A program made the position numbers and the translations under genes. Below are positions 35,636-55,298 of a DNA stretch of 64,000 nt, piece by piece. Numbering within the stretch: the stretch's first letter is position 1; each line of letters begins with the position of its first letter. The notes beneath the pieces are model-generated. The model had not been told where the DNA came from and made no database searches. It saw only the letters and a list, made by a program, of their open reading frames with translations. The DNA is taken from the NCBI RefSeq assembly GCF_018919065.1, contig NZ_JAHLQG010000054.1:1-64000 (forward strand), read 5' to 3'. The stretch comes from Blautia sp. MSJ-9. Lineage in GTDB: Bacteria > Bacillota > Clostridia > Lachnospirales > Lachnospiraceae.

Positions 35636-35647
35636 GCAAACGTTTGC
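35636..35647. promoter_or_regulatory. Perfect LacI-type operator GCAAACGTTTGC
   Basis: A 12-bp perfect palindrome with the CG centre typical of LacI/GalR sites. It lies midway between the divergent LacI 1 gene and the CHR genes. Related sites: 36920, 45585, 46562, 55289. Confidence 0.7.
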
Positions 35648-35760
35648 TGATAAAAAGAATGATTTTTTTACAGTACATGATAAGATAAAATCAGAAACTA
35701 TAAGAATTTCGGAAAATGTTCGGATTCTTATAAGAATGTATTGAAATTGGGGGAATCATA

Positions 35761-36336
35761 ATGGAAGAAAAACCAAAAAGTAAAGGATATGTACTACGAA
35801 AATTATTTTTTGCATGTCTGTATCTCAGCACATTTACTTTCGGCGGCGGTTATGTAATTGTTACTTTGCTGAAAGAAAAATTTGTGGATCATTATCACTG
35901 GATCGAAGAAGATGAAATGCTGGATCTGGTTGCGATCGCCCAGTCTTCGCCTGGAGCAATCGCAGTAAACGGAGCGATTATTGTGGGGTATAAGCTTGCC
36001 GGCATACCGGGAATGCTGGTATCTGTCATTGGAGCGATCATTCCTCCTATGGTGATCTTATCTGTCATTTCTGTATTTTATGATGCGTTTTGTTCCAATT
36101 ATTATATAGCGGCATTATTAAAAGGAATGACTGCGGGAGTTGGAGCAGTTATTATGTCTGTAGTGTATGATATGGGGAAAAATGTTGTAAAGTCAAAGGA
36201 CTGGGTTAATGTGGTGATAATGATTATCAGCTTCTGTCTCAGCTATTTCCTGAATATTAACATTATCTATATAATACTTTCGGTAGCTGTATTTGGAATG
36301 GTACGGACAATAGTAAAAGGAGGCAGAGATAAATGA
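35761..36336 (+). CDS. CHR-family (chromate-transporter-like) subunit 1
   Basis: 191 aa, about six helices. The short-chain CHR motif is FTFGGGYVIVTLLKEKFV, followed by AQSSPGAIAVNGAIIVGYK. Short CHR proteins occur as overlapping pairs that together equal one long ChrA and move oxyanions (chromate or sulfate in characterised cases) across the membrane. It starts at ATG 35761 after TTGGGGGAA and overlaps the next gene by 4 nt. Confidence 0.9.
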   Translation: MEEKPKSKGYVLRKLFFACLYLSTFTFGGGYVIVTLLKEKFVDHYHWIEEDEMLDLVAIAQSSPGAIAVNGAIIVGYKLAGIPGMLVSVIGAIIPPMVILSVISVFYDAFCSNYYIAALLKGMTAGVGAVIMSVVYDMGKNVVKSKDWVNVVIMIISFCLSYFLNINIIYIILSVAVFGMVRTIVKGGRDK

Positions 36337-36902
36337 TCTATATTCAGCTTTTTTTAAGTTTCCTTCAGGTCGGTGCATTGAGCTTTGGCGGAGGATATGC
36401 TGCAATGCCGCTGATACAGGAACAGGTGGTGAATCTGCACAGCTGGCTTTCCATGAGTGAATTTACGAATCTGATAACGATCGCTGAAATGACACCGGGA
36501 CCGATTGCGGTAAACTCTGCCACCTTTGTAGGGATGCAGATAGCGGGAATCTTAGGTGCAGTAATTGCTACATTGGGATGTATTCTTCCATCCTGTATTA
36601 TTGTAACCTTGTTGGCATATGTTTATATGAAGTATCGGAATATGTCCTTACTTCAGGGAACACTGGCATCTCTCAGACCGGCAGTTGTATCGATGATCGC
36701 CAAAGCAGGGGTAACGATTTTAATTTCTGCATTTTTTATTGATGGTACTGTAAATCTTATACGCCAGAATGTATGTGTGGAAATGATTATATTTTTTGTG
36801 ATCGCGTTGGTACTGCTTCGTAAATTTAAAATAAATCCTATACTTGCAATGGTTTTGTGTGGTGTGGCAAATGTGGTTTTGAGCGCTGTAAAAAAAGCGT
36901 AA
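36333..36902 (+). CDS. CHR-family (chromate-transporter-like) subunit 2
   Basis: 189 aa, partner half of the preceding protein: LSFGGGYAAMPLIQEQVV and AEMTPGPIAVNSATFVG. The ATGA overlap shows coupled translation. Next to an amino-sugar-type gene cluster with shared operators, an organic or sulfur-containing anion is a more natural cargo than chromate (inference). Confidence 0.9.
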   Translation: MIYIQLFLSFLQVGALSFGGGYAAMPLIQEQVVNLHSWLSMSEFTNLITIAEMTPGPIAVNSATFVGMQIAGILGAVIATLGCILPSCIIVTLLAYVYMKYRNMSLLQGTLASLRPAVVSMIAKAGVTILISAFFIDGTVNLIRQNVCVEMIIFFVIALVLLRKFKINPILAMVLCGVANVVLSAVKKA

Positions 36903-36919
36903 ATCACTATATGATAAAG

Positions 36920-36931
36920 CAAACGTTTGTG
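36920..36931. promoter_or_regulatory. LacI-type operator GCAAACGTTTGT
   Basis: Contains a perfect 10-bp palindrome CAAACGTTTG (36921-36930), just after the CHR pair and upstream of the phosphofructokinase gene. Confidence 0.6.
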
Positions 36932-36981
36932 TAATGACGGACTGCAAATAGTCAAATTAATCAGGTATATAACAACAGAAA

Positions 36982-37023
36982 ATAAAGAGGTCAAAAAGAT
37001 CAGAGTCTTTTTGACCTCTTTAT
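36982..37023. terminator. 18-bp perfect hairpin ending the CHR operon
   Basis: ATAAAGAGGTCAAAAAGA (36982-36999) pairs perfectly with 37006-37023 across a 6-nt loop. The T-run is weak, but it is the only terminator candidate before the pfk gene. The rest of 36903-37296 is AT-rich. Confidence 0.75.
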
Positions 37024-37296: not shown

Positions 37297-38463
37297 ATGT
37301 CACAAAATGTATTAGTGGTACATGGAGGTGGGCCTACAGCAGTCATCAATGCATCCCTTTACGGTGTGATCGAAGAAGCAAAACGAAATCCGGAGGTTGG
37401 AAAAGTTTACGGAGCGATTGGTGGAACCGGAGCAATTTTTTCAGAAACTTTCATAGATTTGACTTCGTTTGATGATGAAAAATTGAAACTTCTTTTGCAT
37501 ACACCTGCTTCGGCAATTGGATCTTCCAGATATCCTCTATATGAAAAAGATTATGAAAAAATGGTGGATATCTTTAAAAAACATGATATTAAATATGTTC
37601 TTCTGAATGGCGGAAACGGAACTATGGATGCATGCGGACATATTTATGAGGTCTGTAAGGATCAGGATATCAAAGTTGTTGGAATTCCAAAAACGATTGA
37701 CAATGATATCGCAATGACAGATCACTCACCAGGATATGGAAGTGCGGCAAGATTTATTGCAGCTTCTACCCAGGAAGTTGGTGAAGATGTAAAATCCCTT
37801 CCCATTCATGTATGTATTATGGAAGCCATGGGAAGAAATGCAGGATGGATCACAGCAGCTTCCGCACTTGCAAGAAGGAAACAGGGAGATGCTCCTCACC
37901 TGATCTATCTGCCGGAACGAAACTTTAATGAAGATGAGTTTCTTGAGGATGTATCCAGACTTCAGAAAAAGCAGGGTGGAGTAGTAGTTCTGGTAAGTGA
38001 GGGACTTCATGATGCAAATGGAGAATCTATTGTTCCTCCGATCTTTAAATCAGAAAGAGCTGTTTATTATGGAGATGTAAGTTCACATCTTGCGAATCTG
38101 GTAGTTAAGAAACTTGGCGTAAAAGCAAGAAGCGAAAAACCCGGACTTTGCGGAAGAGCTTCTGTAGCACTTCAGTCACCGGTGGACAGAGAAGAAGCAA
38201 GACAGGCCGGCACAGTTGCACTGAGGAGTGCTGTTGAAGGAAACAGCGGAGTGATGGTAGGTTTTGAACGGGTCCCGGGAACGGTGTATCAGATGAAAAC
38301 AAAGCTTGTTCCTATCAAAGAAGTTATGCTTTATGAACGGAAGATGCCTGACAATTTTATAAATGAAAGAGGTAACGATGTAACACAGGAATTTGTTGAC
38401 TGGTGTCGCCCGCTGATCGGAGATCCACTTCCGGAATTCCTGAACTTCAAGGATTATCTTTAA
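37297..38463 (+). CDS. 6-phosphofructokinase-family sugar kinase
   Basis: 388 aa PfkA-type kinase. Motifs: HGGGPTAVINA (phosphoryl donor site), GGNGTMD (105-111), PKTIDND (131-137; Lys132 and the catalytic Asp) and MGRNAGW. The donor-site residues equal to E. coli 104 and 124 are Gly and Lys. Gly/Gly is typical of ATP enzymes, Asp/Lys of pyrophosphate enzymes; this mixed pair is seen in some ATP-using groups. Substrate may be fructose-6-P or tagatose-6-P, as expected beside an AgaS/GatY-like set. AAAGGAAA precedes ATG 37297; a transporter operon follows 54 nt later. Confidence 0.88.
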   Translation: MSQNVLVVHGGGPTAVINASLYGVIEEAKRNPEVGKVYGAIGGTGAIFSETFIDLTSFDDEKLKLLLHTPASAIGSSRYPLYEKDYEKMVDIFKKHDIKYVLLNGGNGTMDACGHIYEVCKDQDIKVVGIPKTIDNDIAMTDHSPGYGSAARFIAASTQEVGEDVKSLPIHVCIMEAMGRNAGWITAASALARRKQGDAPHLIYLPERNFNEDEFLEDVSRLQKKQGGVVVLVSEGLHDANGESIVPPIFKSERAVYYGDVSSHLANLVVKKLGVKARSEKPGLCGRASVALQSPVDREEARQAGTVALRSAVEGNSGVMVGFERVPGTVYQMKTKLVPIKEVMLYERKMPDNFINERGNDVTQEFVDWCRPLIGDPLPEFLNFKDYL

Positions 38464-38517: not shown

Positions 38518-39300
38518 ATGGAAAAAAAGAAAAAAGGAGTAATGCAGTCTATCCCGGGATGGGCATGGGTACTGATTTCCCTTGCAGCAGCAATCCTGTT
38601 ATGGTATGCATTATCCATTAATCCAAAAACAGCACGAAGCTTCCCGTTTATTCCGGCTATTCTTGAGGCAGCCAAACGAATGATTGATAATGGGGCACTG
38701 GGACAGGATTTTTGTAGTTCAATGATTTCAATCCTGGCCGGATTTGCACTCGGCTTTATAACCGCAGTACCGGTTGCATTTCTTATGGCATGGTACCTGC
38801 CGGTCAGAGGAGTTCTGGAACCATGGATTCAGTTTATTCGTAACATCCCACCTCTGGCATATGTACCGTTGGTAGTTATTACAGCTGGTGTTGGTAGAAA
38901 ACCACAGATCATCGTTATCTGGATCGCAACATTCCTGATCATGACAGTTACAATCTATCAGGGTGTAAGAAACATTGATAATACTTTAGTAAAAGCAGCC
39001 AGAGTTCTTGGCGCAAAAGACAGAGATATATTTGTAAAAGTTATTTTCCCGGCAACAACCCCGTTTATTTTAACAGCTGTTCGACTTGGTATTTCCGTTG
39101 CACTGACAACATTGATCGCAGCAGAAACAACAGGAGCTACTGCCGGACTTGGAATGAGAATCCGTTCTCTGGCAAACAGTTTTGAAACAGCAGGCATGCT
39201 GATGTATATCATCATCATTGGTATCATCGGACTGGTAATGGAAAAAATCATTAAATTCTTAGAAGGAAGGTTAACAGGATGGCAGGAGAAGAGAGAGTGA
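38518..39300 (+). CDS. NitT/TauT-family ABC transporter permease
   Basis: 260 aa, six helices, SsuC/TauC type: WYLPVRGVLEPWIQFIRNIPPLAYVPL and the EAA-like loop NTLVKAARVLGAKDRDIFVKVIFPATTPFI. This family takes up sulfonates, nitrate and pyrimidine-like anions. ATG 38518 follows AAAGGAGAG. It is overlapped by the ATPase gene. Confidence 0.9.
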   Translation: MEKKKKGVMQSIPGWAWVLISLAAAILLWYALSINPKTARSFPFIPAILEAAKRMIDNGALGQDFCSSMISILAGFALGFITAVPVAFLMAWYLPVRGVLEPWIQFIRNIPPLAYVPLVVITAGVGRKPQIIVIWIATFLIMTVTIYQGVRNIDNTLVKAARVLGAKDRDIFVKVIFPATTPFILTAVRLGISVALTTLIAAETTGATAGLGMRIRSLANSFETAGMLMYIIIIGIIGLVMEKIIKFLEGRLTGWQEKRE

Positions 39301-40070
39301 CAAAACTTAAGATTGATAACGTTAAAAAGATTTATCAGACCCGTAAGGGCGAGATGACTGCATTAAACGGAGTTAATCTTGATATTAAAGAAAATGAATT
39401 TATCTGTGTGGTAGGACCTTCCGGATGCGGTAAATCTACATTGCTGAATATTATCGCAGGACTGGATACTCCAACCAGTGGAGCTGTATACATTGACGGC
39501 AAAAAGATCGAGGGAACAGGTACAGAGAGAGGCGTTGTATTCCAGCAGTATGCATTGTTCCCATGGCTGACAGTTCTGAAAAATGTTATGTTTGGCTTGA
39601 AACTGCAGGGCAAGAGCGATGCTGAAGCAAAAGAAATTGCAATGAAATATATCAAGATGGTACAGCTTGAAGATTTCGTAAATCATTATCCAAAGGAACT
39701 CTCCGGTGGTATGAAACAGCGTGTTGCAATTGCAAGAGCCTATGCTGTAAAACCTGAAGTTCTTCTTATGGATGAGCCATTCGGAGCTCTGGATGCCCAG
39801 ACAAGAACCCAGCTGCAGACAGAACTTCTGAAAACATGGGAAAGTGAAAGAAAAACATGTTTCTTTATCACGCATGATGTAGATGAGGCAATCATTCTGG
39901 CTCAGAGAGTTATCGTTATGAGTGCCAGACCTGGACGTATTAAAGATATTGTAGATATCGATATTCCATATCCACGTGATCAGGAGACAAAGATGAGCCC
40001 GAGATTTATGGAATTGAAAAATCATATCTGGAGTCAGGTATATCAGGAATATCTGGAAGTAAGAAAATAA
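39279..40070 (+). CDS. NitT/TauT-family ABC transporter ATPase
   Basis: 263 aa. Walker A GPSGCGKST, Q-loop QQYALFPW, signature LSGGMKQR, Walker B VLLMDEPFGALD and switch HDVDEA. SsuB/TauB-like. The ATG at 39279 overlaps the permease gene by 22 nt; a GTG at 39297 is an alternative start. Confidence 0.93.
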   Translation: MAGEERVTKLKIDNVKKIYQTRKGEMTALNGVNLDIKENEFICVVGPSGCGKSTLLNIIAGLDTPTSGAVYIDGKKIEGTGTERGVVFQQYALFPWLTVLKNVMFGLKLQGKSDAEAKEIAMKYIKMVQLEDFVNHYPKELSGGMKQRVAIARAYAVKPEVLLMDEPFGALDAQTRTQLQTELLKTWESERKTCFFITHDVDEAIILAQRVIVMSARPGRIKDIVDIDIPYPRDQETKMSPRFMELKNHIWSQVYQEYLEVRK

Positions 40071-40163
40071 TGAATTTTGGCCGTTGCCGGTATGGGACGG
40101 TTTAGAATAAAGAGAAACTATTAAATACTACCCTAAAAAGCGGAAAAGAAAGGAAGTAGGACA

Positions 40164-41177
40164 ATGAGAAAAACATGGAAAAAGTTAGCAGCAATGGCAG
40201 TAACAGCATCTATGGTCATTTGTGGCGGAGCAATGGGCGTAAGTGCAGCGACAGAGGAAGAACCGGAAAAAGTAACTGTAAATGTAGCTTATATGCCTGA
40301 TTATGCAAGCTTAAATGGTCTTATCTCTGCAATTGAACTTGGATATTTTGATGATGAGAACATTGATGTACAGCTTACAGAGTTCTCCGATGGACCGACA
40401 ATCATTCAGGCTATGGAATCAGGATCTATTGATGTAGGATATATCGGACAGGGAGCTCATAAACTCTGCATCAACGGTAAGGCTGATATCTTTGCACTGG
40501 CACATGTATCCAATGGTGATGCTGTAATCGGAAGCAAAGAAAAAGGAACAGATACAATTGAAGGATTAAAAGGAAAAACAATTGCTTATTCCTCTGGAAC
40601 ATCCAGTGAAGATATCCTGAATAAAACCCTTGCAAAAGGAGGTATGACGATGGATGATATCACAGCAATGGATATGGATGCAACAAACATTGTAACAGCA
40701 ATGCTTTCTGGCAGTGTTGATGCGTGTGCAACATGGGTACCGAACTCTTTGAAAGTTCTTGAGGAACTTGGAGATGATGGTGTACAGCTGACAGATAACA
40801 AAACATTTATTGATCAAACTGTATCTCTTGCAAGCTGGATTGCAATGCCGAAATATGCTGAAGAAAATCATGACGTACTTGTAAGATTTGCAAGAGCTCT
40901 TTACAAAGGATTTGACTATCGTGCAGACCACAGCCATGATGATGAAGTGTGCGGCTGGATTGCTGACAAGATTAAACTTGAAAAAAATTCCCTTCTTGAT
41001 CAGGTAGAAGTAGCAGACTGGACAACAAGTGAATTCATCAGGGATCATATGGATGATGTCAAAGGCTATTATGAACTACAGCAGAAATCATTTGTTGAGA
41101 GCGGTGACTGTGAAGAAACACCAGTTGATAATTATGTTCTTTTCGATGTAATGGAAGAAGCTTGCGCAGAAGAATAA
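40164..41177 (+). CDS. NitT/TauT-family substrate-binding protein
   Basis: 337 aa. Signal peptide 1-28 (ends GVSA), then an SsuA/TauA-type domain: VNVAYMPDYASLNGLISAIELGYFDDENIDVQL, DGPTIIQAMESGSIDVGYIG, LKGKTIAYSSGTSSEDIL and ACATWVPNSLKVLEEL. No lipobox Cys is visible at the cleavage site. The ligand is probably a small anion, but members also bind amines and vitamins. Last gene of the pfk-ABC unit; terminator at 41190. Confidence 0.9.
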   Translation: MRKTWKKLAAMAVTASMVICGGAMGVSAATEEEPEKVTVNVAYMPDYASLNGLISAIELGYFDDENIDVQLTEFSDGPTIIQAMESGSIDVGYIGQGAHKLCINGKADIFALAHVSNGDAVIGSKEKGTDTIEGLKGKTIAYSSGTSSEDILNKTLAKGGMTMDDITAMDMDATNIVTAMLSGSVDACATWVPNSLKVLEELGDDGVQLTDNKTFIDQTVSLASWIAMPKYAEENHDVLVRFARALYKGFDYRADHSHDDEVCGWIADKIKLEKNSLLDQVEVADWTTSEFIRDHMDDVKGYYELQQKSFVESGDCEETPVDNYVLFDVMEEACAEE

Positions 41178-41228: not shown

Positions 41229-41246
41229 ATATACACTCGTGTGTAT
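41229..41246. promoter_or_regulatory. 18-bp palindrome in front of LacI 2
   Basis: ATATACACTCGTGTATAT is an 8+8 bp perfect dyad with a TC centre, 40 nt before the chosen start of LacI 2. It differs from the AAACGTTT sites and is the best candidate for the operator of LacI 2 itself. Confidence 0.55.
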
Positions 41247-41285
41247 ATCGGAAATAAAGAAAATGCTCCGGAAAGGAACAAGACG

Positions 41286-42305
41286 GTGGAAAGCAGACAA
41301 AGGAAAGTAACGAGAAAAGATGTCGCAGAAGAGGCAGGGGTATCTGAAACTATTGTTTCGTATGTACTTAATAAAAATCGTTATGTAAAAGAAGAAAAAA
41401 GACAGCGTGTCCTTGAAGCTGTGGAAAAGTTACAGTATCAGCCTAATAATATTGCCAGGGCTCTTCACGGAAAGGGCAGTCTGCAAATTCTTTTTATTGC
41501 AGAAGAACTGAGCAGTGGCTACTTTTCTGAAATGGTAAGCCAGATGAGCCGGGATGCCTACAGACAGGGGTATATGATTTCTCTTTGTGAAAGTCAGAAG
41601 GAAGATGAATTTGTAAGCCATATTCTCAGCAGACAGTTCGATGGTCTGTTTGTCAGTGCATCCGGTGTAACAGACAGTCAACTGAAACTTCTGGTAAAGT
41701 CAGGGATTCCTATGGTACTGTTTTTAAACCGGGAGATTAACTGCGAACTTCAGGATACGGTTCTGGTGGACACGGGACTTTATGAAGGCAGCAGGGAGTG
41801 TGTCCGACATTTGTCAAAAAATGGATGCAGAAATTTTATTTATCTTGATAAACTGGGAAAACCTTGTGACAGGGATATTCATTTGAAGGGATTTTTGGAT
41901 CAGGTAAAAGACCTGGGAATTGTTTTTGCACCGGAACAGAAGATTTCCGGATGTGAGAATATAAAAGAACTTGAAGAAAAGCTGCGGTCTTTGCTGGAAA
42001 AAAATTCTTCTATTGATGCAGTAGTGGCGCGATATGATGAGCTGGCAGCTGTAGCGCTTTCTGTAGCGCGAAAGATGGGAAAAAAAGTGCCGGATGATCT
42101 GTTGGTGATAGGATTTGATAATGATTTTATAAGTAATTATGTAAGTCCGACTCTTACAACTGTAGAGATTCAAAAAGAAGAAGTGGGAAGAGCTGCAATG
42201 GAAGCACTTCTTGCATTGATTCGAAATGAAAAATTGGATAAAGAAATAAGTTTTGCAGCGAGACTTATTATACGGGAAAGCACAGAGAAAAACAAAAATA
42301 AATAA
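41286..42305 (+). CDS. LacI-family repressor 2
   Basis: 339 aa. The HTH (RKVTRKDVAEEAGVSETIVSYVLN) begins at residue ~5; the effector domain follows (VIGFDNDFISNYVSPTLTTVEI). It is not closely similar to LacI 1 and 3. GTG 41286 is chosen because AAAGGAAC lies upstream and it starts right before the HTH; an in-frame GTG at 41241 lies inside the palindrome. It is first in a unit with aldolase 1 and the SIS isomerase. Confidence 0.85.
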   Translation: MESRQRKVTRKDVAEEAGVSETIVSYVLNKNRYVKEEKRQRVLEAVEKLQYQPNNIARALHGKGSLQILFIAEELSSGYFSEMVSQMSRDAYRQGYMISLCESQKEDEFVSHILSRQFDGLFVSASGVTDSQLKLLVKSGIPMVLFLNREINCELQDTVLVDTGLYEGSRECVRHLSKNGCRNFIYLDKLGKPCDRDIHLKGFLDQVKDLGIVFAPEQKISGCENIKELEEKLRSLLEKNSSIDAVVARYDELAAVALSVARKMGKKVPDDLLVIGFDNDFISNYVSPTLTTVEIQKEEVGRAAMEALLALIRNEKLDKEISFAARLIIRESTEKNKNK

Positions 42306-42340: not shown

Positions 42341-43192
42341 ATGTTAGTTACAAGCAAGGAAATGCTGGAAAAGGCACGCAGAGAACATTATGCAGTACCG
42401 GCAATGAATACACAGGGTGGAAACTATGATATTATCTGGGCAATCTGCAGAGCAGCGGAAGAAATGCATTCACCTGCGATCCTGGCTCATTATGTAGCTA
42501 CAGGAGCATATTCCGGAGATGACTGGTTTGTAGAAGTATGTAAATGGTGTGCAAATAAAGTAAGTGTACCGATTGCGATCCATCTGGATCATGGTGACAG
42601 CTTTGATATCTGCATGAAATCATTAAAGAATGGATTTACTTCTCTGATGATCGATGGCTCTACAAAACCGATTGAAGAAAATGCCAGACTCACAAATGAA
42701 GTGATCAAGGTGGCAAAATGTTTCGATATTCCTGTGGAAGCAGAGATCGGAGAACTTTTAAGATTAGATGAAGCCGGTGCTCAGATGGAGAATAAAAATG
42801 TAGCAAATCCGGAGCAGGTTCGTCAGTTCCTGAATCTGTGTCAGCCGGATTCTCTGGCTATTGGAATCGGAAATGCTCATGGATATTATAAGGGTGAACC
42901 GGATATCAAACTGGAAGTTCTGGAAGAAGTAAGGAAATTTACAGATATTCCATTTGTTCTTCATGGATGTACAGGTATGAGAGAAGATATCATCAAAGAA
43001 GCTATTAAACTTGGTGTTGCGAAAATTAACTTTGGTACAGAAATCCGTTATAAATATGTAGAACATTATGAAGAAGCATTGAAGACAAATCATCAGGGAC
43101 ATTCATGGAAACTGTCACAGCTTGCAAATGATGCTCTGACAGAAGACATCAAAAAGATCATCCGTCTTGCAGGTTCAGAAGGAAAGGCCTGA
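42341..43192 (+). CDS. Class II aldolase 1 (GatY/KbaY-like)
   Basis: 283 aa, the length of tagatose-bisphosphate aldolases. Zinc-binding and catalytic motifs: HLDHGDSFD (catalytic Asp and Zn His), VEAEIGEL, IGNAHGYYKG (Zn His), HGCTGM (Zn His) and KINFGTEIR (phosphate binding). It cleaves a ketose-1,6-bisphosphate to DHAP and an aldehyde. Its position between LacI 2 and the SIS isomerase suggests tagatose-1,6-bisphosphate or a related sugar. Confidence 0.88.
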   Translation: MLVTSKEMLEKARREHYAVPAMNTQGGNYDIIWAICRAAEEMHSPAILAHYVATGAYSGDDWFVEVCKWCANKVSVPIAIHLDHGDSFDICMKSLKNGFTSLMIDGSTKPIEENARLTNEVIKVAKCFDIPVEAEIGELLRLDEAGAQMENKNVANPEQVRQFLNLCQPDSLAIGIGNAHGYYKGEPDIKLEVLEEVRKFTDIPFVLHGCTGMREDIIKEAIKLGVAKINFGTEIRYKYVEHYEEALKTNHQGHSWKLSQLANDALTEDIKKIIRLAGSEGKA

Positions 43193-44314: not shown

Positions 44315-44318
44315 TTAA

Positions 44319-45423: not shown

Positions 45424-45497
45424 AATAACTCCCCGCAATCTTTTATACGACTATTTTCTAAAACTATGTGCAAAACAGAAAATCAGAGTCTTCTGTT

Positions 45498-45584: not shown

Positions 45585-45596
45585 GAAAACGTTTGC
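45585..45596. promoter_or_regulatory. LacI-type operator GAAAACGTTTGC
   Basis: Identical 12-mer to the site at 46562-46573. It lies between divergent lacI 3 and larC. Confidence 0.65.
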
Positions 45597-45698
45597 GTAC
45601 TTTGAATGCAAAATCAACTCAAAGTTATTGATAAAAAAGTAAAAACTTATATAATTTTTGATAGAGTACATAAAACTAAAGTGGAGGTGCTTAAATTT

Positions 45699-46562: not shown

Positions 46563-46573
46563 AAAACGTTTGC
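46562..46573. promoter_or_regulatory. LacI-type operator GAAAACGTTTGC before nagB
   Basis: Exact repeat of the 12-mer at 45585. It overlaps the last base of the larC stop codon and lies ~30 nt upstream of the nagB -35 box. Confidence 0.65.
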
Positions 46574-47546: not shown

Positions 47547-48695
47547 ATGAGCATTCGGATCATAAATGGAAAAGTATATAAGAATGGAACTTTTTCAGAG
47601 GAAGATCTTGTTCTGAAAGAGGGAAAGATCAGTTCTGCTGAAGATGAAAACGCAGATGAAGTCTATGATGCAAAAGGGAAATATGTAGTACCCGGTTTTA
47701 TAGATGTACATACTCATGGCGGTGCAGGGGTAGATGTAAATGCGGCTGATCAGCAGGGATTTGAAAAAATTGGACATTTTTTTGCAACTCAGGGAACTAC
47801 GTCATGGCTTTCATCCATATTGACAGATACGAAAGAACAGACGTTGAAAACAATAAATGAAGCTGTGAAGCATCAGGAGGCACAAAAGAACGGACATGAA
47901 AACTGTGCAGATCTTCTGGGGATTCATCTTGAGGGACCATTCCTTGCGCCGGAATATAAAGGAGCAATGCCGGAGCATTTGCTGATTTCTCCGGATCTGG
48001 AGCTTCTGAAAGAATATCAGAAGGCAGCAGACGGTAATATTCGCTATATTACTGTTTCGCCGGAAGTAAAAGGAGTGCCGGAAGCAATTAAGGGAATGAC
48101 GGATCTTGGTATGAAGGTTGCTATCGGTCATTCAGGCGCAGATTATGAGACTTCATGGAAATGTATTAATGAGGGGGCTGTAGCAGCGACACATACATTT
48201 AATGCGATGAAACTTCTTCATCAGCATTTTCCAGCTATCATGGGGGCTGTTCTGGAATCTGACATCTATTGTGAAGCTATCTGTGACGGACGGCATCTGC
48301 ATCCGGGAACCGTTCGTTTTCTTCTGAAAATGAAAGGTCTGGACAAAGTAATCGCCATAACTGATTCTATCATGGCTGCCGGACTTCCGGATGGAGAATA
48401 TATGCTGGGCGTTAATCCGGTTATCGTAAAAGACGGAGACGCAAAACTGAAATACGGAGATTCCAGAGCGGGAAGTACGCTTACAACAGGATGTGCACTT
48501 AAGAATCTGATCAAATTTACAGGAAGATCTCTTGAAGAGATACTGCCGCTTCTTACATGCAATCCGGCTAAGATGCTGGATGTATATGACAGGATTGGAA
48601 GTCTTGATACCGGAAAAGATGCGGATGTGGTTATTCTGGATGAAGAATATTCTGTCATTGATACATTTGTAAAAGGTAGAAAAATAGAACAATAA
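47547..48695 (+). CDS. nagA: N-acetylglucosamine-6-phosphate deacetylase-family protein
   Basis: 382 aa amidohydrolase. DVHTHGG, the metal-binding Glu in HLEGPFLAPEYKGA, IGHSGADY, THTFNAM, DGRHLHP and the catalytic Asp in AITDSI are present. It removes the acetyl group from an N-acetyl-hexosamine-6-phosphate in the cytoplasm. It lies 36 nt after nagB and 13 nt before aldolase 2. Confidence 0.93.
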   Translation: MSIRIINGKVYKNGTFSEEDLVLKEGKISSAEDENADEVYDAKGKYVVPGFIDVHTHGGAGVDVNAADQQGFEKIGHFFATQGTTSWLSSILTDTKEQTLKTINEAVKHQEAQKNGHENCADLLGIHLEGPFLAPEYKGAMPEHLLISPDLELLKEYQKAADGNIRYITVSPEVKGVPEAIKGMTDLGMKVAIGHSGADYETSWKCINEGAVAATHTFNAMKLLHQHFPAIMGAVLESDIYCEAICDGRHLHPGTVRFLLKMKGLDKVIAITDSIMAAGLPDGEYMLGVNPVIVKDGDAKLKYGDSRAGSTLTTGCALKNLIKFTGRSLEEILPLLTCNPAKMLDVYDRIGSLDTGKDADVVILDEEYSVIDTFVKGRKIEQ

Positions 48696-48708: not shown

Positions 48709-49863
48709 ATGCCATTAATACCATTAAGACCATTACTAGAAACTGTAGATAAATATCACTTTGCACAGGGGGCGTTTAATGTAAATGCAGTAGCACAGGC
48801 AAAAGCAGCAATTGAAGTTCATGAAATGTTCCGTTCTGCAGCAATCCTTCAGGGAGCAGATCTTGCAAATGGATTTATGGGTGGAAGAACAGATTTTCAG
48901 AATGCTACTCTGGAAGATAAAAAAATCGGTGCAAAGAATATCGCAGATGCTGTAAAGAAATATGCAGAAAATTCTCCGATTCCTGTTGTTCTTCACCTGG
49001 ATCATGGTAAGAATTTTGATTCCTGTAAAGCAGCAATTGCAGGCGGTTATACATCTGTTATGATTGATGGCTCCAGCCTTCCGTTTGATGAAAACGTGGA
49101 ACTGACTCGTGAAGTTGTCAAATATGCGCATGAAAGAGGTGTTTCTGTAGAGGGTGAACTGGGAGTTTTAGCCGGCGTGGAGGATCATGTATTTTCTGCT
49201 ACATCTACTTATACCAATCCTTTAAAGGCTATTGAATTCTTTAAGAAAACAGGTGTTGATGCATTGGCTATTTCTTATGGAACCATGCATGGCGCTTCTA
49301 AAGGAAAAAATGTTAAATTAAGAAAAGAAATTGCCATTGCCATCAAAGAGTGCATGCTGCATGAGGGTATTTTTGGTGTACTGGTATCTCATGGATCTTC
49401 AACAGTGCCAAGATATATTGTAGATGAGATCAATGCTCTGGGTGGAAATATCCAGAATGCCTATGGAATTTCTATTGATGAACTGAAAGCGGCAATTCCA
49501 TGTGGTATTGGAAAGATCAATGTAGATACAGATATCCGTCTGGCTGTTACAAGAAATATGAAAGAATTTTTTGCAGCTCATCCTGAAAAAAGAGAAAGCC
49601 AGTCGATTGGTGAGGTATATCGCCTTCTGGAGGCAAAGAAAGAACAGTTTGATCCACGTGCATTCCTGACTCCTATTATGGATACAGTTATGTATGGCGT
49701 TATTCCGGATGAAGATGTTGCTGCTCTTATGGCTGTTGTTGAAAAGGGCGTAAAAGAAGCAATCGGTACTCTGATCGTAGAATTTGGTTCTTATGGAAAA
49801 GCACCGCTGGTGGAGATGACTGGTCTGGATGAAATGGCAGAGCGCTATCGTAAAGGGCTTTGA
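48709..49863 (+). CDS. Class II aldolase 2 (long form)
   Basis: 384 aa, ~100 longer than aldolase 1. HLDHGKNFDSC, VEGELGVLAGVED, ISYGTMHGASKG, LVSHGSSTVP and GKINVDTDIRLAVTRNMKEFF show a class II enzyme with Zn His residues and phosphate-binding Asp. The C-terminal ~80 residues (DPRAFLTPIMDTVMYGVI ... YGKAPLVEMTGLDEMAERYRKGL) are an extension I do not recognise. The last codons overlap the start of the TauE gene. Confidence 0.85.
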   Translation: MPLIPLRPLLETVDKYHFAQGAFNVNAVAQAKAAIEVHEMFRSAAILQGADLANGFMGGRTDFQNATLEDKKIGAKNIADAVKKYAENSPIPVVLHLDHGKNFDSCKAAIAGGYTSVMIDGSSLPFDENVELTREVVKYAHERGVSVEGELGVLAGVEDHVFSATSTYTNPLKAIEFFKKTGVDALAISYGTMHGASKGKNVKLRKEIAIAIKECMLHEGIFGVLVSHGSSTVPRYIVDEINALGGNIQNAYGISIDELKAAIPCGIGKINVDTDIRLAVTRNMKEFFAAHPEKRESQSIGEVYRLLEAKKEQFDPRAFLTPIMDTVMYGVIPDEDVAALMAVVEKGVKEAIGTLIVEFGSYGKAPLVEMTGLDEMAERYRKGL

Positions 49864-50576
49864 TCTATATATTAACAGCACTGGTAGCTTTGGCAGGAAG
49901 TTGTGTGCAGAGCAGCAGTGGATTTGGCTATGCAATTATCTGTATGGCCATCTGGCCAATGTTTATGCCTTTTTACACAGCTTCCATACTGGAAGCGATT
50001 GCAGCTTTTTTTATGGTAATTTACATTGCAGTAAAGTTGTGGAAATTTATTGACTGGAAACTTCTTTTGCCACCTGTGATCATGGCTACGGTAACCAGCC
50101 TTCTGGGGGTGAATACGCTGATGGCTCTGGATGAAGCTGTTTTGTCAAAGATCATGGGAACAGTTCTTCTTGTTCTGGCAGTTTATTTTATTTTCTTCAG
50201 CAGTAAAGTTCATTTAAAGGCAGGTTTGGTTTCCGGATTGGCAGCCGGTGCAGTCAGTGGTTTTTGCGGAGGACTTTTTAATATTGGAGGTCCACCGATG
50301 GTAGCGTATTTTTTGTCCGTGACAGATGATAAAGAAAAATATAATGCTACACTTCAAATGTTTTTTACAATTAATACGGTCAGTGTTTTCCTGATCCATG
50401 TGTTTCAGGGTCATGTATCAGGAGCTATGCTGCCTTTGGTTGGAGCGGCACTGGCAGGAACGGCAGTTGGAACAGCAGTTGGAATGTTTTTGTTTCGCCG
50501 GCTTACTATGACAGGGATCAAAAAAGTGGTATATATTTTTATGATGTGTGCCGGAAGCTATCTCCTTTTATCCTGA
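49860..50576 (+). CDS. TauE/SafE-family anion exporter
   Basis: 238 aa, about eight helices in two repeats: SSSGFGYAIICMAIWP and GFCGGLFNIGGPPMVAYFL. The family exports sulfite, sulfoacetate and similar small anions. It begins at TTG 49860, inside the CTTTGA stop of aldolase 2, so it is translationally coupled to it. In this operon it probably removes an end product such as a 3-carbon acid or sulfonate (inference). Confidence 0.85.
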   Translation: MIYILTALVALAGSCVQSSSGFGYAIICMAIWPMFMPFYTASILEAIAAFFMVIYIAVKLWKFIDWKLLLPPVIMATVTSLLGVNTLMALDEAVLSKIMGTVLLVLAVYFIFFSSKVHLKAGLVSGLAAGAVSGFCGGLFNIGGPPMVAYFLSVTDDKEKYNATLQMFFTINTVSVFLIHVFQGHVSGAMLPLVGAALAGTAVGTAVGMFLFRRLTMTGIKKVVYIFMMCAGSYLLLS

Positions 50577-50662: not shown

Positions 50663-51511
50663 ATGAAACACATTTATCTGAATTTAAAAAGATTTGATGT
50701 TCCGGTGGAATTCGGAGGTGTAAACCGTCTGGCTCCGGTTGCTGACTGGGCATCCTGTATTGTAAAGAATACACAGGAAGAATTAAAGACATATGATCCT
50801 TCTGAAGTGGAATTTGGTATGTATTTTCCGGAAGTACATCTTCTGAATGCAGCAGCAGCAAAAACAGAAGGAAGTCCTGTTCAGATAGGCTGCCAGAGTG
50901 TATTCAGAGCAGATACTGCAGTTGGCGGAAATTTTGGCGCATTTACTGCAAACAGACCGGCTTCGGCTATGGCAGCGGCCGGATGTGAGACTACGATCAT
51001 CGGACACTGTGAAGAGAGAAATGATAAAGCAGGAATCCTCGCAGAGGCAGGTGTCACAGATACAGATGCTGTAAACCGCCTTCTGAATCAGGAAATTAAA
51101 TGTGCGATTGCAAGAGGAATGAAAGTTCTTTACTGTATCGGTGAGAAAAGTGAGGAACAGGAGCAGTGGCAGGAAGTTCTTGGAAAACAGCTTGAGATCG
51201 GACTTAAGGATGTAGACACTTCAAAGGTTGTGATCGCATATGAACCGATCTGGTCTATCGGACCGGGAAAAACACCGGCCGGAAAAGAATATATTACTAA
51301 GATCGCGAAATTTGTAAAAGAAAAGACAAATGGTATGGACATCGTATATGGTGGTGGTCTGAAGCAGGACAATGCAGAAATGCTTGCGTCCATTGATGAG
51401 ATAGATGGTGGATTGATCGCATTGACAAGATTTCAGGGTGAAATTGGATATTATCCGGAGGAATATCTTGAGATTATTCGTCTTTATATGGGTAAGGTAA
51501 ATAACAGATAA
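50663..51511 (+). CDS. Divergent triose-phosphate isomerase homologue
   Basis: 282 aa against ~250 in standard TPI. The catalytic residues are in place: NLK (Lys9), His115 and Glu194 (AYEPIWSIGPGKTP). The otherwise invariant 'GHSERR' reads GHCEERND, and there is extra sequence near the N-terminus (GGVNRLAPVADWA). It probably isomerises DHAP/GAP or a related tetrose or triose phosphate released by aldolase 2. A housekeeping TPI is expected elsewhere. Confidence 0.85.
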   Translation: MKHIYLNLKRFDVPVEFGGVNRLAPVADWASCIVKNTQEELKTYDPSEVEFGMYFPEVHLLNAAAAKTEGSPVQIGCQSVFRADTAVGGNFGAFTANRPASAMAAAGCETTIIGHCEERNDKAGILAEAGVTDTDAVNRLLNQEIKCAIARGMKVLYCIGEKSEEQEQWQEVLGKQLEIGLKDVDTSKVVIAYEPIWSIGPGKTPAGKEYITKIAKFVKEKTNGMDIVYGGGLKQDNAEMLASIDEIDGGLIALTRFQGEIGYYPEEYLEIIRLYMGKVNNR

Positions 51512-51545: not shown

Positions 51546-53033
51546 ATGAAATTTGATTTTGAGTATGGACAGGGAACCATGTCTGCTGAATTGCCGGATA
51601 ATACTGATATTTTTATCCCGGGAGAAACTGTAAAGGATCCTGATCATATTCCGGAAGATCAGCTTGAGGCTGCTTATCTGGAAAGTCTGGCTCATCCGAT
51701 CGGTATGCCTACTTTAACAGAACTGGCAGGACCCGGAAAAACAGTTACTATTGTTGTTCCGGATCGTGTAAAAGGTGGCGAGCAGGCTACCAGCCACAGA
51801 AAGTTAAGCATTAAATATATTTTGAAAGAATTATATGCTGCCGGTGTTGAAAAGAAAGATATTCTTTTCATTATTTCTAACGGACTTCATCCAAGAAGCA
51901 CAGAAGCGGATGCAAAGGCTATCTTTGGAGAAGAATTATTTAATGAATTCTGGCATACAGGACAGATCATCAGTCATGACAGTGAAGATCAGGAACATAT
52001 GGTAGATCTTGGAACCACTCACAGAGGCGATCCGGTGTACATGAATAAATATGTCTTTGAGTGTGATATTCCGATTCTTATCGGTCATGTACAGGGAAAT
52101 CCTTATGGTGGATATTCAGGCGGATACAAACACAGTGCAACTGGTATTACAAACTGGAAATGTATTGCAAGCCATCATGTACCGTCTGTTATGCACAGAG
52201 ATGATTTTACACCGGTTAATGGTGGAAGCCTGATGCGTAATAAATTTGATGAGATCAGTATGCATATGGAAGAAAAAATGGGACATCCTTTCTTCTGCTG
52301 TGATGCTGTACTGGATACACAGTCCAGACAGATCGCAATTTACTCAGGCTATGCAAAGGAAATGATGCCGATCAGCTGGAAGCTTGCTGACAAGAGAACC
52401 TATGTACACTGGGCAGAGAAGAAATATGATGTACTTGTATTTGGTATGCCGCAGAAATTCCACTATGGTGATGGAATGGGAACCAATCCTATCATGATGA
52501 TGCAGGCTTTAAGTGCACAGGTACTTCGATTCAAGAGAGTTATGAGTGATAACTGTGTAATTATCTGCGCATCTACATGCAATGGTTATTTCCATGATGA
52601 GCGTTGGCCATATTTAAGAGAATTATATGATCTGTTCCAGCATGATCATATGAATACGCTGCCGGATATGAACCGCCTTGGTGAGTATTTTGCTACGAAT
52701 GAAGAATATATCCGTAAATATCGTTATACGAATGCATTCCATCCATTCCATGGCTTCTCTATGATGTCCTGCGGACATATTGCAGAAATGAATACCAGTG
52801 CAATCTATATCGTAGGCGCTGAGGAACCGGGCTATGCAAGAGGAATGGGCTTAAAAACAAGAGCTACATTTGAAGAAGCACTGGAAGATGCCAAGAAGAA
52901 ATATGTTGGTCAGGAACCAAATATTCTGGCACTGCCAATGACATTCAAAAAAGCAGCTGTACATCTTTGCATGAAAGATCCTGCACAGGATTGTATGGAT
53001 GAATATGGACATCGTCATCCATGTTGCTGTTGA
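51546..53033 (+). CDS. LarA-family nickel-pincer racemase/epimerase homologue
   Basis: 495 aa. The cofactor lysine lies in YSGGYK (Lys195, equal to LarA Lys184), His211 equals the nickel ligand His200, and His115 (NGLHPRST) equals the catalytic His108. The second catalytic His (174 in LarA) is Asn185 here, with His181 close by. These enzymes invert the carbon of a 2-hydroxy acid (lactate, malate, gluconate and others). The C-terminus ends HRHPCCC, an unusual Cys cluster. Last gene of the nagB operon; GAAGGGAG precedes ATG 51546. Confidence 0.85.
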   Translation: MKFDFEYGQGTMSAELPDNTDIFIPGETVKDPDHIPEDQLEAAYLESLAHPIGMPTLTELAGPGKTVTIVVPDRVKGGEQATSHRKLSIKYILKELYAAGVEKKDILFIISNGLHPRSTEADAKAIFGEELFNEFWHTGQIISHDSEDQEHMVDLGTTHRGDPVYMNKYVFECDIPILIGHVQGNPYGGYSGGYKHSATGITNWKCIASHHVPSVMHRDDFTPVNGGSLMRNKFDEISMHMEEKMGHPFFCCDAVLDTQSRQIAIYSGYAKEMMPISWKLADKRTYVHWAEKKYDVLVFGMPQKFHYGDGMGTNPIMMMQALSAQVLRFKRVMSDNCVIICASTCNGYFHDERWPYLRELYDLFQHDHMNTLPDMNRLGEYFATNEEYIRKYRYTNAFHPFHGFSMMSCGHIAEMNTSAIYIVGAEEPGYARGMGLKTRATFEEALEDAKKKYVGQEPNILALPMTFKKAAVHLCMKDPAQDCMDEYGHRHPCCC

Positions 53034-53076: not shown

Positions 53077-53122
53077 CATCCCTGTCCAGAGCTGTTTTGT
53101 GTTTCTGACAGGGATGTTTTGT
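53077..53122 (+). terminator. Terminator of the nagB-larA operon
   Basis: CATCCCTGTC (53077-53086) pairs with GACAGGGATG (53107-53116), followed by TTTTGTT. Confidence 0.82.
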
Positions 53123-53164
53123 TATATCACTGGCATTTTTATACTGAAAGAGAGAATTTGGGAT

Positions 53165-53704
53165 ATGAAAGAAAATACAGCTTTAAGAAAAAGAATTTTA
53201 GCAGCATTGTTTCTTGCGATCGGACTGATCCTTCCATTTATCACAATGCAGATACCGGCAGTAGGGAAAATGCTTTGCCCGATGCACATACCGGTGTTAT
53301 TATGTGGATATATCTGCGGATGGCCATATGGTTTACTTATTGGGATTATTACACCTCTTTTAAGAGGAGTGGTGTTCGGAATGCCGGCAATTTTTCCGAA
53401 TGCCTTCTGTATGGCGTTTGAACTTGCCACTTATGGGCTGGTGGCAGGAATTTTATCAGAAAAAATGAAAAAAGATATAAAATCCCTGTATATTTCACTC
53501 ATAGCAGCAATGCTGTGTGGACGGATCGTATGGGGACTGGTTTCGGCAGCAGTATATGCATTTACAGGAGGGATCTTTACCTGGGAACTGTTTCTGATGG
53601 GAGGATTTATAAATGCGTTGCCGGGAATTCTGATTCAGCTTGTTCTGATCCCGTCCCTGGTAGAACGTTTGTATAATATGGAAGGAACAGTAGAATGGAA
53701 TTAA
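53165..53704 (+). CDS. ECF transporter S component
   Basis: 179 aa, about six helices. 'MHIPVLLCGYICGWPYGLLIGIITPLLRGVVFGMP' is the ECF S-component core (helix 1-3). It binds a vitamin or vitamin precursor; the ligand cannot be told. ATG 53165 starts right at the conserved N-terminal 'LRKRILAALFLAIGLILPF'. It lies after the larA terminator and overlaps the P-loop kinase gene by 10 nt, so the two form a unit. Confidence 0.82.
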   Translation: MKENTALRKRILAALFLAIGLILPFITMQIPAVGKMLCPMHIPVLLCGYICGWPYGLLIGIITPLLRGVVFGMPAIFPNAFCMAFELATYGLVAGILSEKMKKDIKSLYISLIAAMLCGRIVWGLVSAAVYAFTGGIFTWELFLMGGFINALPGILIQLVLIPSLVERLYNMEGTVEWN

Positions 53705-54309
53705 AGGCATGCTGCAAAGAAAGATTTGAACCGGTAGTTCAGGCAATCAGAAAATTGCAGAAAGAGAAGGAAGGACTGGATGAGCCTCTGATCGTTGCAA
53801 TTGATGGCAGGTGTGGAAGTGGGAAAACTACATTGGGAGAATATCTGGAGCAGGTATTCGACTGTAATCTGTTCAGAATGGATGACTTTTTTCTGCGCAT
53901 GGAACAGCGTACGCCACAGCGTCTGAAAGAAACAGGAGGAAATGTGGATTATGAGCGGTTTGAGGAAACGGTATTAAGACCAATCTTTCAGAAGCAGACT
54001 GTTTTTTATCAGCCGTTCAGCTGCCAGAAATGGAATCTGCTGGAGGGATATCCTGTTCCTTATAAAAAACTCAATATTATAGAGGGTTCTTACAGTATGC
54101 ATCCATATTTTAAGAACCCTTATCAACTTCGTGTATTTTTAAATATTTCTCCCAAAGATCAGATGGAAAATATAAAAAAGCGCAATGGCCCGGAAAAGGC
54201 AAAACAATTTCAGAATATGTGGATCCCAAAGGAGGAAGCCTATTTTAAAAAATTCCATGTGATGGATGGTGCAATACAGGTCATGTGGAATCTGAAAACT
54301 GAAGAATAA
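53695..54309 (+). CDS. Uridine-kinase-like P-loop kinase
   Basis: 204 aa. Walker A IDGRCGSGKTT (~36-46), MDDFF (~64) as in uridine/pantothenate kinases, and the lid KRNGPEKAKQF. It phosphorylates a nucleoside or vitamin-like substrate. Overlap with an ECF S component suggests trapping of the imported vitamin by phosphorylation (inference). Confidence 0.78.
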   Translation: MELKACCKERFEPVVQAIRKLQKEKEGLDEPLIVAIDGRCGSGKTTLGEYLEQVFDCNLFRMDDFFLRMEQRTPQRLKETGGNVDYERFEETVLRPIFQKQTVFYQPFSCQKWNLLEGYPVPYKKLNIIEGSYSMHPYFKNPYQLRVFLNISPKDQMENIKKRNGPEKAKQFQNMWIPKEEAYFKKFHVMDGAIQVMWNLKTEE

Positions 54310-54313
54310 AAGA

Positions 54314-55198
54314 TTATTCTATCAGAGAAATCTCAAGATGATATGCTTTTTCTTTTCCGGATTCCAGTGTGAGGATCCCATGCTTATGCGCAAAAATATC
54401 ATCATCCTGATGAAAAATGCCGGAACCGTTCCATGGCTCCAGACAGAGAAACGGAGCCTTTCCTCCGGCCGGTGTCCAAATTGCAAGGGATTCAAAATCA
54501 GGATAATATACGGAAACACCTTTTCCTGTAATTGCATTTACGAAAGAAACATAGTGTGAATTCGTGTGTTCAAAGAAAACAGCATCCTGATCAAACATGG
54601 AAATTGTGAGAGGAAGTGTGTTGCCTTCTGCTTTCTGGGATACTTTGTGATTAAAATTAAATTCCAGATTCTTTATATCATATTCATAAGAAATAAAATT
54701 CTCTTCTTTTTCAAATCTTAAAATACAATTTTCAATATTTTCTCCATTATTGACCGGACACATGAAACCGGGATGTGCACCAATATGATAATACATAATG
54801 TCGGAATCTTTGTTTATTACTCTATAGTCCATAGACAGAGTACTGCCATTCAGATGATATGACAGGTAAAGTTCAAAATCATAAGGATAATGTTTTAATG
54901 TTTCTTCATTTGCTTTAAGTAAAAAAGTGACGGAATTTTCAGTCTGTTCTGTTACTTCAAATTCAGATTCTTTACAAAAACCATGTTTGGGCATCTGGTA
55001 TATATGATCCTTGATAACAGTTTCTCCGTTGCGGACATTTCCCACAGTCGGAAAAAGAAGCGGAGAAGATCGAAGCCAGTAAGCGGGATCAGAATTCCAT
55101 ACGTATTCATTCCCGGATGGATTGGAATAGGAATTTAATTCGGCACCAAGTGTGTTTAAAAGTACATGATAATTGTCAGATTGTAATTTAATCTGCAT
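54314..55198 (-). CDS. Aldose 1-epimerase-family protein (LacX-like)
   Basis: 294 aa galactose-mutarotase fold. YVWNSDPAYWLRSSPLLFPTVG, PKHGFCKE (catalytic-site His), GAHPGFMCP (His) and LCLEPWNG (Glu) are the LacX-type motifs. It interconverts sugar anomers. ATG 55198 follows GGGAGGG. An AAACGTTT operator stands 91 nt upstream, so it seems to belong to the same regulon as the 35-53 kb genes. Confidence 0.85.
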   Translation of the reverse strand: MQIKLQSDNYHVLLNTLGAELNSYSNPSGNEYVWNSDPAYWLRSSPLLFPTVGNVRNGETVIKDHIYQMPKHGFCKESEFEVTEQTENSVTFLLKANEETLKHYPYDFELYLSYHLNGSTLSMDYRVINKDSDIMYYHIGAHPGFMCPVNNGENIENCILRFEKEENFISYEYDIKNLEFNFNHKVSQKAEGNTLPLTISMFDQDAVFFEHTNSHYVSFVNAITGKGVSVYYPDFESLAIWTPAGGKAPFLCLEPWNGSGIFHQDDDIFAHKHGILTLESGKEKAYHLEISLIE

Positions 55199-55288
55199 AG
55201 TAAAACCCTCCCTGATAAATACATAATAGTAATATGCTGCATAAAACAAGCGTATCATAAAAACACTGTAATGGAATAGAAATTTGGA

Positions 55289-55298
55289 CAAACGTTTG
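55289..55298. promoter_or_regulatory. LacI-type operator CAAACGTTTG
   Basis: Perfect 10-bp palindrome, the same as at 36921-36930, between the LacX-like gene (minus) and the ATPase gene (plus). Confidence 0.6.

Follow-up and report, generated by a model that had tools for sequence, protein, structure and literature searches.

A conserved gene module around a nickel-pincer LarA homologue in Blautia sp. MSJ-9, probably acting on sugars with a group other than phosphate at C6

We analysed a stretch of 64,000 nucleotides of Blautia sp. MSJ-9 (contig NZ_JAHLQG010000054.1, positions 1 to 64,000; hereafter the window, whose numbering is used throughout), in which genes for amino-sugar enzymes, transporters and LacI regulators stand around larA, a gene for a homologue of the nickel-pincer enzyme LarA. 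Other genomes have many of these genes around larA as well, intergenic regions of the locus carry copies of an operator-like site, and several of the sugar enzymes have lost their contacts with a 6-phosphate while their catalytic residues were kept. The simplest reading of this loss is that the chain acts on a sugar with a non-phosphate group at C6, probably a hexosamine or a hexose. We propose, with a confidence that falls a little short of even chances, that the locus is a catabolic regulon under LacI control whose substrate is a hexosamine (in relatives, a hexose) with a non-phosphate anion at C6. This anion would most likely be a sulfur oxyanion, as either a 6-O-sulfate, e.g. N-acetylglucosamine 6-sulfate (GlcNAc-6-sulfate), or a 6-C-sulfonate. 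The module conservation, the operator-like sites in the locus and the lost 6-phosphate contacts are new here. The structure of LarA_Bw, the same protein as the window LarA, and part of its neighbourhood were already published in 2025, hence the locus is not undescribed, as a preliminary description made from the sequence had called it.

The loci for comparison came from a scan for LarA with one genome per species, in which 342 stretches encoding a relative were found and the best 80 loci were kept, so that distant LarA members are under-represented; they are 80 loci and not 80 genomes, because L055 and L060, on separate contigs, belong to the same genome. We considered as neighbours the genes within ten genes of LarA, obtained by a simple caller of open reading frames (ORFs), and all neighbour counts are lower bounds because GC-rich or short loci lose genes. 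A homologue of triosephosphate isomerase (TIM-like) was near LarA in 69/80 loci, adjacent and on the same strand in 67, phosphofructokinase (PFK) in 57/80 and the aldolase termed aldolase 2 in 56/80. Among the enzymes that may feed this core, nagA was found in 36/80 loci, nagB in 32/80 and a gene similar to phosphoglucose isomerase (PGI-like) in 34/80, with either nagB or the PGI-like gene in 52/80 and both in 14/80. As regards transport, a TauT-type ATPase was near LarA in 32/80 loci, a TSUP exporter in 28/80 and either TSUP or CHR in 31/80; less common neighbours were a sensor kinase (18/80), GH3 (14/80), LarC1 (5/80), SIS (4/80) and LacX (4/80). There is hence one core (PFK, aldolase, TIM-like and LarA), which is fed through two arms. 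The first is nagB-nagA, in many cases alongside a TauT-type ABC importer and a two-component system; the second is the PGI-like isomerase, frequently accompanied by GH3, by a ROK regulator or by a symporter of the MFS_2 family (identified by Pfam in L019).

Since many of the same genes recur in the 80 loci, the clustering around larA is not due to chance, and the single conserved module foreseen in the preliminary description was recovered. The gene set is more conserved than the gene order: the order nagB-nagA-aldolase-tauE-tpi-larA put forward there holds only in loci of close Blautia type (L002 and, with no tim called, L003 and L005); the other loci retain the set in a different arrangement. 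The CHR pair can stand on the same strand and adjoin larA, tim and PFK (LarA-tim-PFK-chrB-chrA in L128 and L129), the order in L125 is nagA-PFK-tim-LarA-larE-larB-larC-lacI-CHR pair (larE and larB named by reading the sequence), and L123 has TauT, LarA, a beta-hydroxyacid dehydrogenase and TauE, with no TIM called. In an even draw of genomes LarA was present in 10/398 of the phylum and 12/391 of the class, and is therefore accessory. With cutoffs of E 1e-40 and 1e-35, the TIM-like protein was also found in 12/391 class genomes of the same draw, and 11 genomes were common to both proteins; in the genome with LarA alone (G695) a gene for a beta-hydroxyacid dehydrogenase is near larA in place of the TIM-like one (L121), and in the TIM-only genome (G723) the TIM-like gene lies at a contig end. 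LarA homologues at 28% identity (L102 and L103) adjoin other genes and were left out of the module count. Two further settings were observed: in L030, L051 and L076 the TauT-type ABC genes and the nagB-nagA pair of the module adjoin a gene for a DUF4838 protein (by Pfam for L076, by BLAST relatives in the other two), and in a Solobacterium (L053:7348-12311) homologues of UlaG, AraD and IolO stand directly upstream of LarA and the TIM-like gene, in an ascorbate-like setting.

The ORFs of the window cluster were typed by Pfam and curated-family profile searches, using as cutoffs those of the models themselves. The genes named in the preliminary description, between 35636 and 55298, are all present as open ORFs at the places given there, and these two bounds coincide with two copies of the operator-like site; the family calls needed some refinement: the PFK is of the pyrophosphate (PPi)-dependent type, and NagB and the SIS protein are only distant members. 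The NagB-like deaminase/isomerase (46689..47510, forward strand) scores far under all the NagB cutoffs (103.7 bits, against 236.9) and gives no Pfam match at E 0.001, and the SIS-domain isomerase/deaminase (43253..44314, forward) is a distant GlmD/AgaS relative (149.9 bits, with a cutoff of 580), whereas the NagA-like deacetylase (47547..48695, forward) clears the NagA cutoff (293.7 vs 225.65).

For the residue comparison, one complete ORF per locus was aligned with the E. coli K-12 proteins, with a floor of identity to the window or family reference of 40% for NagB, NagA and PGI and 50% for TIM and aldolase 2, and the window's own protein was added to each set except that of PGI. In the NagB, NagA, TIM, PGI and SIS alignments, the residues named below are those with roles in catalysis or in 6-phosphate binding. 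All the NagB-like proteins (32/32, the window and 31 loci) have Gly43-Thr44 deleted, R172 replaced by Gly and K208 by His, with the catalytic D72, H143 and E148 kept in 32/32. In the NagA-like proteins H143 is replaced by Met and R227 by His (37/37, the window and 36 loci), and the metal-binding or catalytic E131, H195, H216 and D273 are kept in 37/37. The TIM-like protein (50663..51511, forward; PF00121, 124 bits) has YGGG for YGGS in loop 7 (68/68) and ALTRF for GGASL in loop 8 (67/68); His95 and Glu167 are kept in 68/68, the N-x-K motif near the start in 64/68 and IGPGK of loop 6 in 66/68. In the PGI-like enzymes of relatives SKTFTT is changed to AKNFET (33/34), with E355, H386 and K514 kept in 34/34, and the SIS protein has TRKSYT in place of the GlmS phosphate loop SQSGET in the five family members aligned. 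Aldolase 2 (fba2; 48709..49863, forward; class II, long form, PF01116) has QGA, near-invariant in the consensus of 55 sequences, where the Giardia fructose-bisphosphate aldolase has QCS (Ser50), but it retains the Arg that corresponds to Giardia Arg259.

Diverged paralogues could still be engaged in the ordinary catabolism of GlcNAc-6-phosphate or N-acetylgalactosamine 6-phosphate, to which larA, tauE and the ABC genes would be unrelated passengers, as the NagA-like protein that clears the NagA cutoff would allow. We regard this as very improbable, since LarA and the TIM-like protein share 11 genomes of 12 each, the phosphate contacts of NagB and NagA are lost without exception in the LarA-linked sets, and an ordinary TIM (with YGGS and GGASL; G000:C3) and a second NagB homologue (with NGHIGFNEP) are encoded elsewhere in the genome. 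The acid-substituted amino sugar that the preliminary description had suggested is supported, and the residues indicate that the substituent stands in place of the 6-phosphate.

The loss of the site alone names no substituent, because NagB-like proteins without LarA share it, and in this respect the proposal of a sulfur oxyanion is weakened. Precisely, NagB-like proteins occur in 23/391 class genomes, 19 of them without a LarA hit, and, among 16 such proteins from 16 further loci, Gly43-Thr44 is missing in 16/16 and both R172 and K208 in 14/16 (L157 and L158 keep both); a phosphate-site loss unique to LarA-linked NagB was thereby ruled out. These enzymes of other clusters, the contacts lost in several enzymes, the Glu in the PGI loop, the GH3 genes of the PGI-like arm (14/80 loci) and the lack of any hexose kinase or phosphotransferase system (PTS) among the annotated genes of the cluster would all suit unphosphorylated sugars (free GlcNAc or glucose) on a kinase-saving route, in which fructose 1-phosphate would give dihydroxyacetone phosphate (DHAP) and glyceraldehyde, and the TIM-like enzyme would make dihydroxyacetone. 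Such a route seems unlikely to us, as it leaves LarA, TauE, CHR and TauT without a role, and the new Arg and His residues of NagB (FRxWH[RK], 32/32), the Arg in TIM loop 8 (67/68) and the Arg-Lys of the SIS protein suggest an anion. The FRxWH[RK] motif marks the LarA-linked NagB-like proteins, being found among the 16 further ones only in G723, the genome with a TIM-like gene. As a separate observation, the NagB-like proteins without 6-phosphate contacts in L144-L156 (e.g. L145:6292-14785 and L150:8132-11581), which have no LarA hit of this type, are mostly paired with a NagA-like protein and have neighbours similar to AraA/SftI, Gfo/Idh, GlcD/FeS or GlcD/Etf, FBA, PfkB and FGGY (partly named by reading); these clusters are probably further undescribed amino-sugar pathways.

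For the proposed substrate, a hexosamine with a non-phosphate anion at C6, we infer the order of the steps, the direction of transport, the identity of the C6 group and the substrate of LarA from the gene families and their residues. The 6-substituted sugar would be imported by the NitT/TauT-type ABC transporter (permease, ATPase and substrate-binding protein; 38518..41177, forward), whose genes match the TauC/SaoP, SaoA/NtrCD/TauB and SsuA families, with every score under the curated cutoffs. Deacetylation by the NagA-like enzyme and then deamination/isomerisation by the NagB-like one would give a 6-substituted ketose, which in relatives may come from aldose-ketose isomerisation by the PGI-like enzyme. 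The PPi-type PFK homologue (37297..38463, forward; PRK14072, 429 bits, cutoff 273) would act as a 1-kinase of this ketose, and aldol cleavage would yield DHAP and a three-carbon aldehyde retaining the C6 group. This fragment would be converted by the TIM-like enzyme and LarA, and the anion exported by TauE (TauE/SafE, TSUP; 49860..50576, forward; PF01925, 102 bits) and by the CHR-type proteins, encoded as two halves by chrA (35761..36336, forward; PF02417, 157 bits) and chrB (36333..36902, forward; PF02417, 169 bits).

As for the C6 group, a sulfate or a sulfonate is favoured as most likely. The TSUP and CHR exporters and the TauT importers near LarA lean towards sulfur, and so do matches to the SftI family of isomerases in L075 (211.6 bits, with AraA, the next family, at 28.7) and L127 (165.8 bits, with no other family at E 1e-10), and sulfatase genes that adjoin LarA in L056 and L058 (by BLAST; L056 also by Pfam, PF00884; CxPxR by reading). 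Moreover, the beta-hydroxyacid dehydrogenases of L098, L099, L121 and L123 have Gly-Arg, as in the E. coli sulfolactaldehyde reductase YihU, replacing the SGG loop of GarR (4/4 aligned), and the Arg of that YihU loop binds the sulfonate. A dehydrogenase of dihydroxypropanesulfonate, DhpA, is described as a YihU homologue in PMC9594981. Among the candidates set aside, one found in L002 with the SftI query (22% identity, adjoining an FGGY kinase) was treated as a general relative of arabinose isomerases, although it is included in the neighbourhood tally. For the split transketolases of L041 and L124 an assignment to SqwGH was not obtained.

Several points weigh against sulfur. The two SftI matches are far under the cutoff of 700; the names TauE, CHR and TauT hold at family level, with TSUP or CHR in only 31/80 loci; the Glu at the former phosphate-binding Thr of the PGI-like enzymes (33/34) is odd for an anionic C6 group; and we know of no natural 6-sulfonated hexosamine. 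The four dehydrogenases score best with models of tartronate semialdehyde reductase (160-197 bits) and lower with that of sulfolactaldehyde reductase (139-172), all under cutoff, and the genes beside LarA in L053 (UlaG/AraD/IolO) and L033 (IolO and a XylB-like FGGY kinase) fit a carboxylate equally. With a carboxylate at C6, a hexosaminuronate or hexuronate would pass through a ketouronate 1-phosphate (by PFK) to DHAP and tartronate semialdehyde (by the aldolase), the TIM-like enzyme would form hydroxypyruvate and LarA would act on an alpha-hydroxy acid, the usual kind of substrate of its family. We nevertheless judge this route improbable: the four dehydrogenases lack the GarR SGG loop and have Gly-Arg like YihU (4/4), tartronate semialdehyde would not extend into the phosphate pocket of TIM, although IGPGK of loop 6 is kept in 66/68, and the sulfatases, TauE, CHR and TauT would be unexpected.

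If the group is a sulfur oxyanion, GlcNAc-6-sulfate is a natural candidate substrate. According to a review (PMC11186840), Bifidobacterium bifidum frees this sugar from the glycans of mucin without assimilating it, and sulfoglycosidases that cleave 6-sulfo-GlcNAc are described for Bifidobacterium, Prevotella and Bacteroides in PMC11659886. Among the matches listed in our literature search, whose scope did not extend to subscription journals, there was no paper on LarA with sulfosugars or on the catabolism of sulfonated amino sugars.

Over the 494 residues aligned, the window LarA (51546..53033, forward) is identical to PDB 9q3j, the deposited apo structure of Blautia wexlerae LarA_Bw, and aligns with LarA_Sp of Streptococcus plurextorum (9q2u/9q3k) with 835 bits. 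It belongs to the LarA nickel-pincer family by its Lar_N domain (PF09861, 137 bits) and by its structural relationship, clears none of the NCBIfam LarAH cutoffs, and is the one Lar_N protein in the genome, whose assembly is 84% complete. The pair of catalytic histidines needed for racemisation in this family is absent: the second is replaced by Asn, N185 being invariant in 15 aligned sequences (position matched to PMC12611868). In that article (Gatreddi et al. 2025), the subfamily is octameric and has Asn at the position of the second catalytic His, the holo form of LarA_Sp was solved, no lactate racemisation is reported for LarA_Sp, and a ligand of 316.5 Da, its identity left open, is described as bound covalently. 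The same authors noted PGI, PFK, TIM, aldolase and NagB as neighbours, suggesting carbohydrate metabolism, and left the substrate open, with a phosphorylated aldose tentatively modelled. LarA homologues without such residues may catalyse another hydride-mediated reaction, according to PMC7583248.

In the preliminary description LarA epimerised a free acid of 3 or 4 carbons. This is not supported: its group has Asn in place of the second catalytic His (PMC12611868), and among the annotated genes of the window cluster no aldehyde dehydrogenase that could make such an acid was found. A three-carbon LarA substrate is suggested instead, because larA adjoins the TIM-like gene and, in four loci with no TIM called beside it, is near a dehydrogenase of the type acting on C3 aldehydes; we propose that LarA acts with the TIM-like enzyme, completing the conversion of the C3 fragment. 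As a speculative form of this proposal, to which we give little credence, the TIM-like enzyme, with its remodelled phosphate grip, might eliminate sulfate or sulfite from the C3 aldehyde to give methylglyoxal, and the single-His LarA might use its nickel-pincer nucleotide (NPN) cofactor as a hydride shuttle and act as an internal redox isomerase, giving lactate, with the anion leaving via TauE or CHR. If true, it would mean a sulfatase-free use of mucin GlcNAc-6-sulfate and a new type of reaction for the NPN cofactor.

The operator-like site is the palindrome GCAAACGTTTGC, which is perfect between lacI1 and chrA (35636..35647), has one mismatch upstream of PFK (36919..36930), of larC1 (45585..45596) and of nagB (46562..46573), and has two mismatches upstream of lacX (55288..55299). 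In the 3.67 Mb of the genome the perfect match occurs once, at 35636, and one-mismatch copies are at six further places; of these seven sites, 4 are in the locus, 1 is at window 15583 and 2 are elsewhere. The binomial probability of 4/7 sites in 0.54% of the genome is 2.9e-8, a value that is optimistic because the motif itself was chosen in the intergenic regions of the locus, and GCAAACGTTTGC is not more frequent genome-wide than its reversed control (7 vs 8). Within the window there are six matches at up to two mismatches, a tally equalled by 1/100 shuffles. A shared regulon is likely for the operator-bearing genes. The copy at 15583-15594 lies between an esterase-like ORF and one similar to DMT transporters (named by reading).

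Three LacI regulators are encoded: lacI1 (34446..35489, reverse; LacI helix-turn-helix and Peripla_BP_3), whose ORF extends to 35678 with the likely start at the ATG at 35487-35489, lacI2 (41241..42305, forward) and lacI3 (44365..45438, reverse), the last two typed by family profiles; lacI1 and lacI3 are 49% identical. They had been described as governing a single regulon, a claim that is not supported for the unit of lacI2, aldolase 1 (fba1; 42341..43192, forward; class II, fructose- or tagatose-bisphosphate type, PF01116, 265 bits) and the SIS protein (41178-44314), in which no copy of the operator-like site was found. This absence would be explained by two adjoining regulons, one with the operator-bearing chrAB, PFK-ABC, larC1, nagBA-fba2-tauE-tim-larA and lacX, the other, independent and for another sugar, with lacI2, aldolase 1 and SIS. 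We consider this division, which is compatible with any of the other readings, a minority possibility with some weight; against it, the Blautia-type loci L002, L003 and L005 keep fba1-SIS beside lacI3-nagBA, and L075 has fba1-tauE-SIS-SftI-PFK-lacX-larA.

The other genes of the cluster are larC1 (45606..46562, forward), for the N-terminal part only of the NPN cofactor synthesis protein LarC (TIGR00299, 198.9 bits, cutoff 90), alone at the locus with full-length LarC and LarE encoded elsewhere in the genome, and lacX, of the LacX/aldose-1-epimerase type (54314..55198, reverse; PF01263, 101 bits), with a likely start at the ATG at 55196-55198. Between larA and lacX lies a pair, not named in the preliminary description, encoding the S component of an energy-coupling factor (ECF) transporter (53099..53704, forward; PF12822, 60.5 bits) and a P-loop kinase (53695..54309, forward; subthreshold kinase matches, nearest to models of uridine-kinase type). 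The pair (53099-54309), for which a cofactor precursor is a conceivable substrate, recurs beside the LarA module at L031:168-1335 and L080:7816-8940; the ECF S component was near LarA in 2/80 loci and the P-loop kinase in 4/80. No Rfam element reached the gathering score between 34000 and 56000. Beyond the cluster, two ORFs of 155 amino acids (57034-57501 and 57689-58156), 655 bases apart and with 406/468 bases identical, are a tandem duplication.

Overall, the observation from which the preliminary description started was confirmed and its interpretation partly supported. The solved nickel enzyme LarA_Bw gains a testable pathway and a short list of substrates, and the module is a possible consumer of the GlcNAc-6-sulfate freed from mucin. 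If true, our proposal would explain a second, phosphate-blind set of amino-sugar enzymes in some gut Bacillota, and, were the anion sulfite or sulfate, an additional source of sulfur oxyanions in the gut.

We consider the locus a variant, partly described before, of the amino-sugar and sulfosugar pathways of Embden-Meyerhof-Parnas (EMP) type. The study of the LarA_Bw/LarA_Sp subfamily (PMC12611868) deals with the same protein and the same kinds of neighbours; what is added here is the loss of 6-phosphate contacts in those neighbours, the module, the operator-like sites and the exporters. The Faecalicatena sulfo-TK/sulfo-TAL cluster was rejected as a match for the LarA neighbourhood, since 'racemase' and 'TauE' do not appear in the main text of PMC11659671 and the enzyme families differ. 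The catabolism of GlcNAc-6-phosphate (NagA-NagB) and the Aga pathway (AgaS-GatY) share with the locus their enzyme families and logical order; here, in contrast, the catalytic residues of NagA and NagB are present without those binding the 6-phosphate, paralogues of PFK, aldolase and TIM and a LarA are added, and no PTS or hexose kinase was seen in the cluster. With the sulfo-EMP (Yih) pathway the locus shares the logic of isomerisation, 1-phosphorylation and aldol cleavage, with DHAP and a C3 anion as products, and also a mutarotase-type gene, an exporter and, in four LarA-linked dehydrogenases of relatives, a YihU-like loop. The families differ, since YihT belongs to PF01791 and the sulfofructose kinase is PfkB-like (PMC9594981), and no family match to the known types of sulfoquinovose isomerase, sulfofructose kinase, transaldolase or transketolase, or sulfolactaldehyde enzymes was found among the window proteins scanned; the corresponding steps would be carried out here by PGI or NagB, a PfkA-type kinase, a class II aldolase, TIM and LarA, with entry from an amino sugar.

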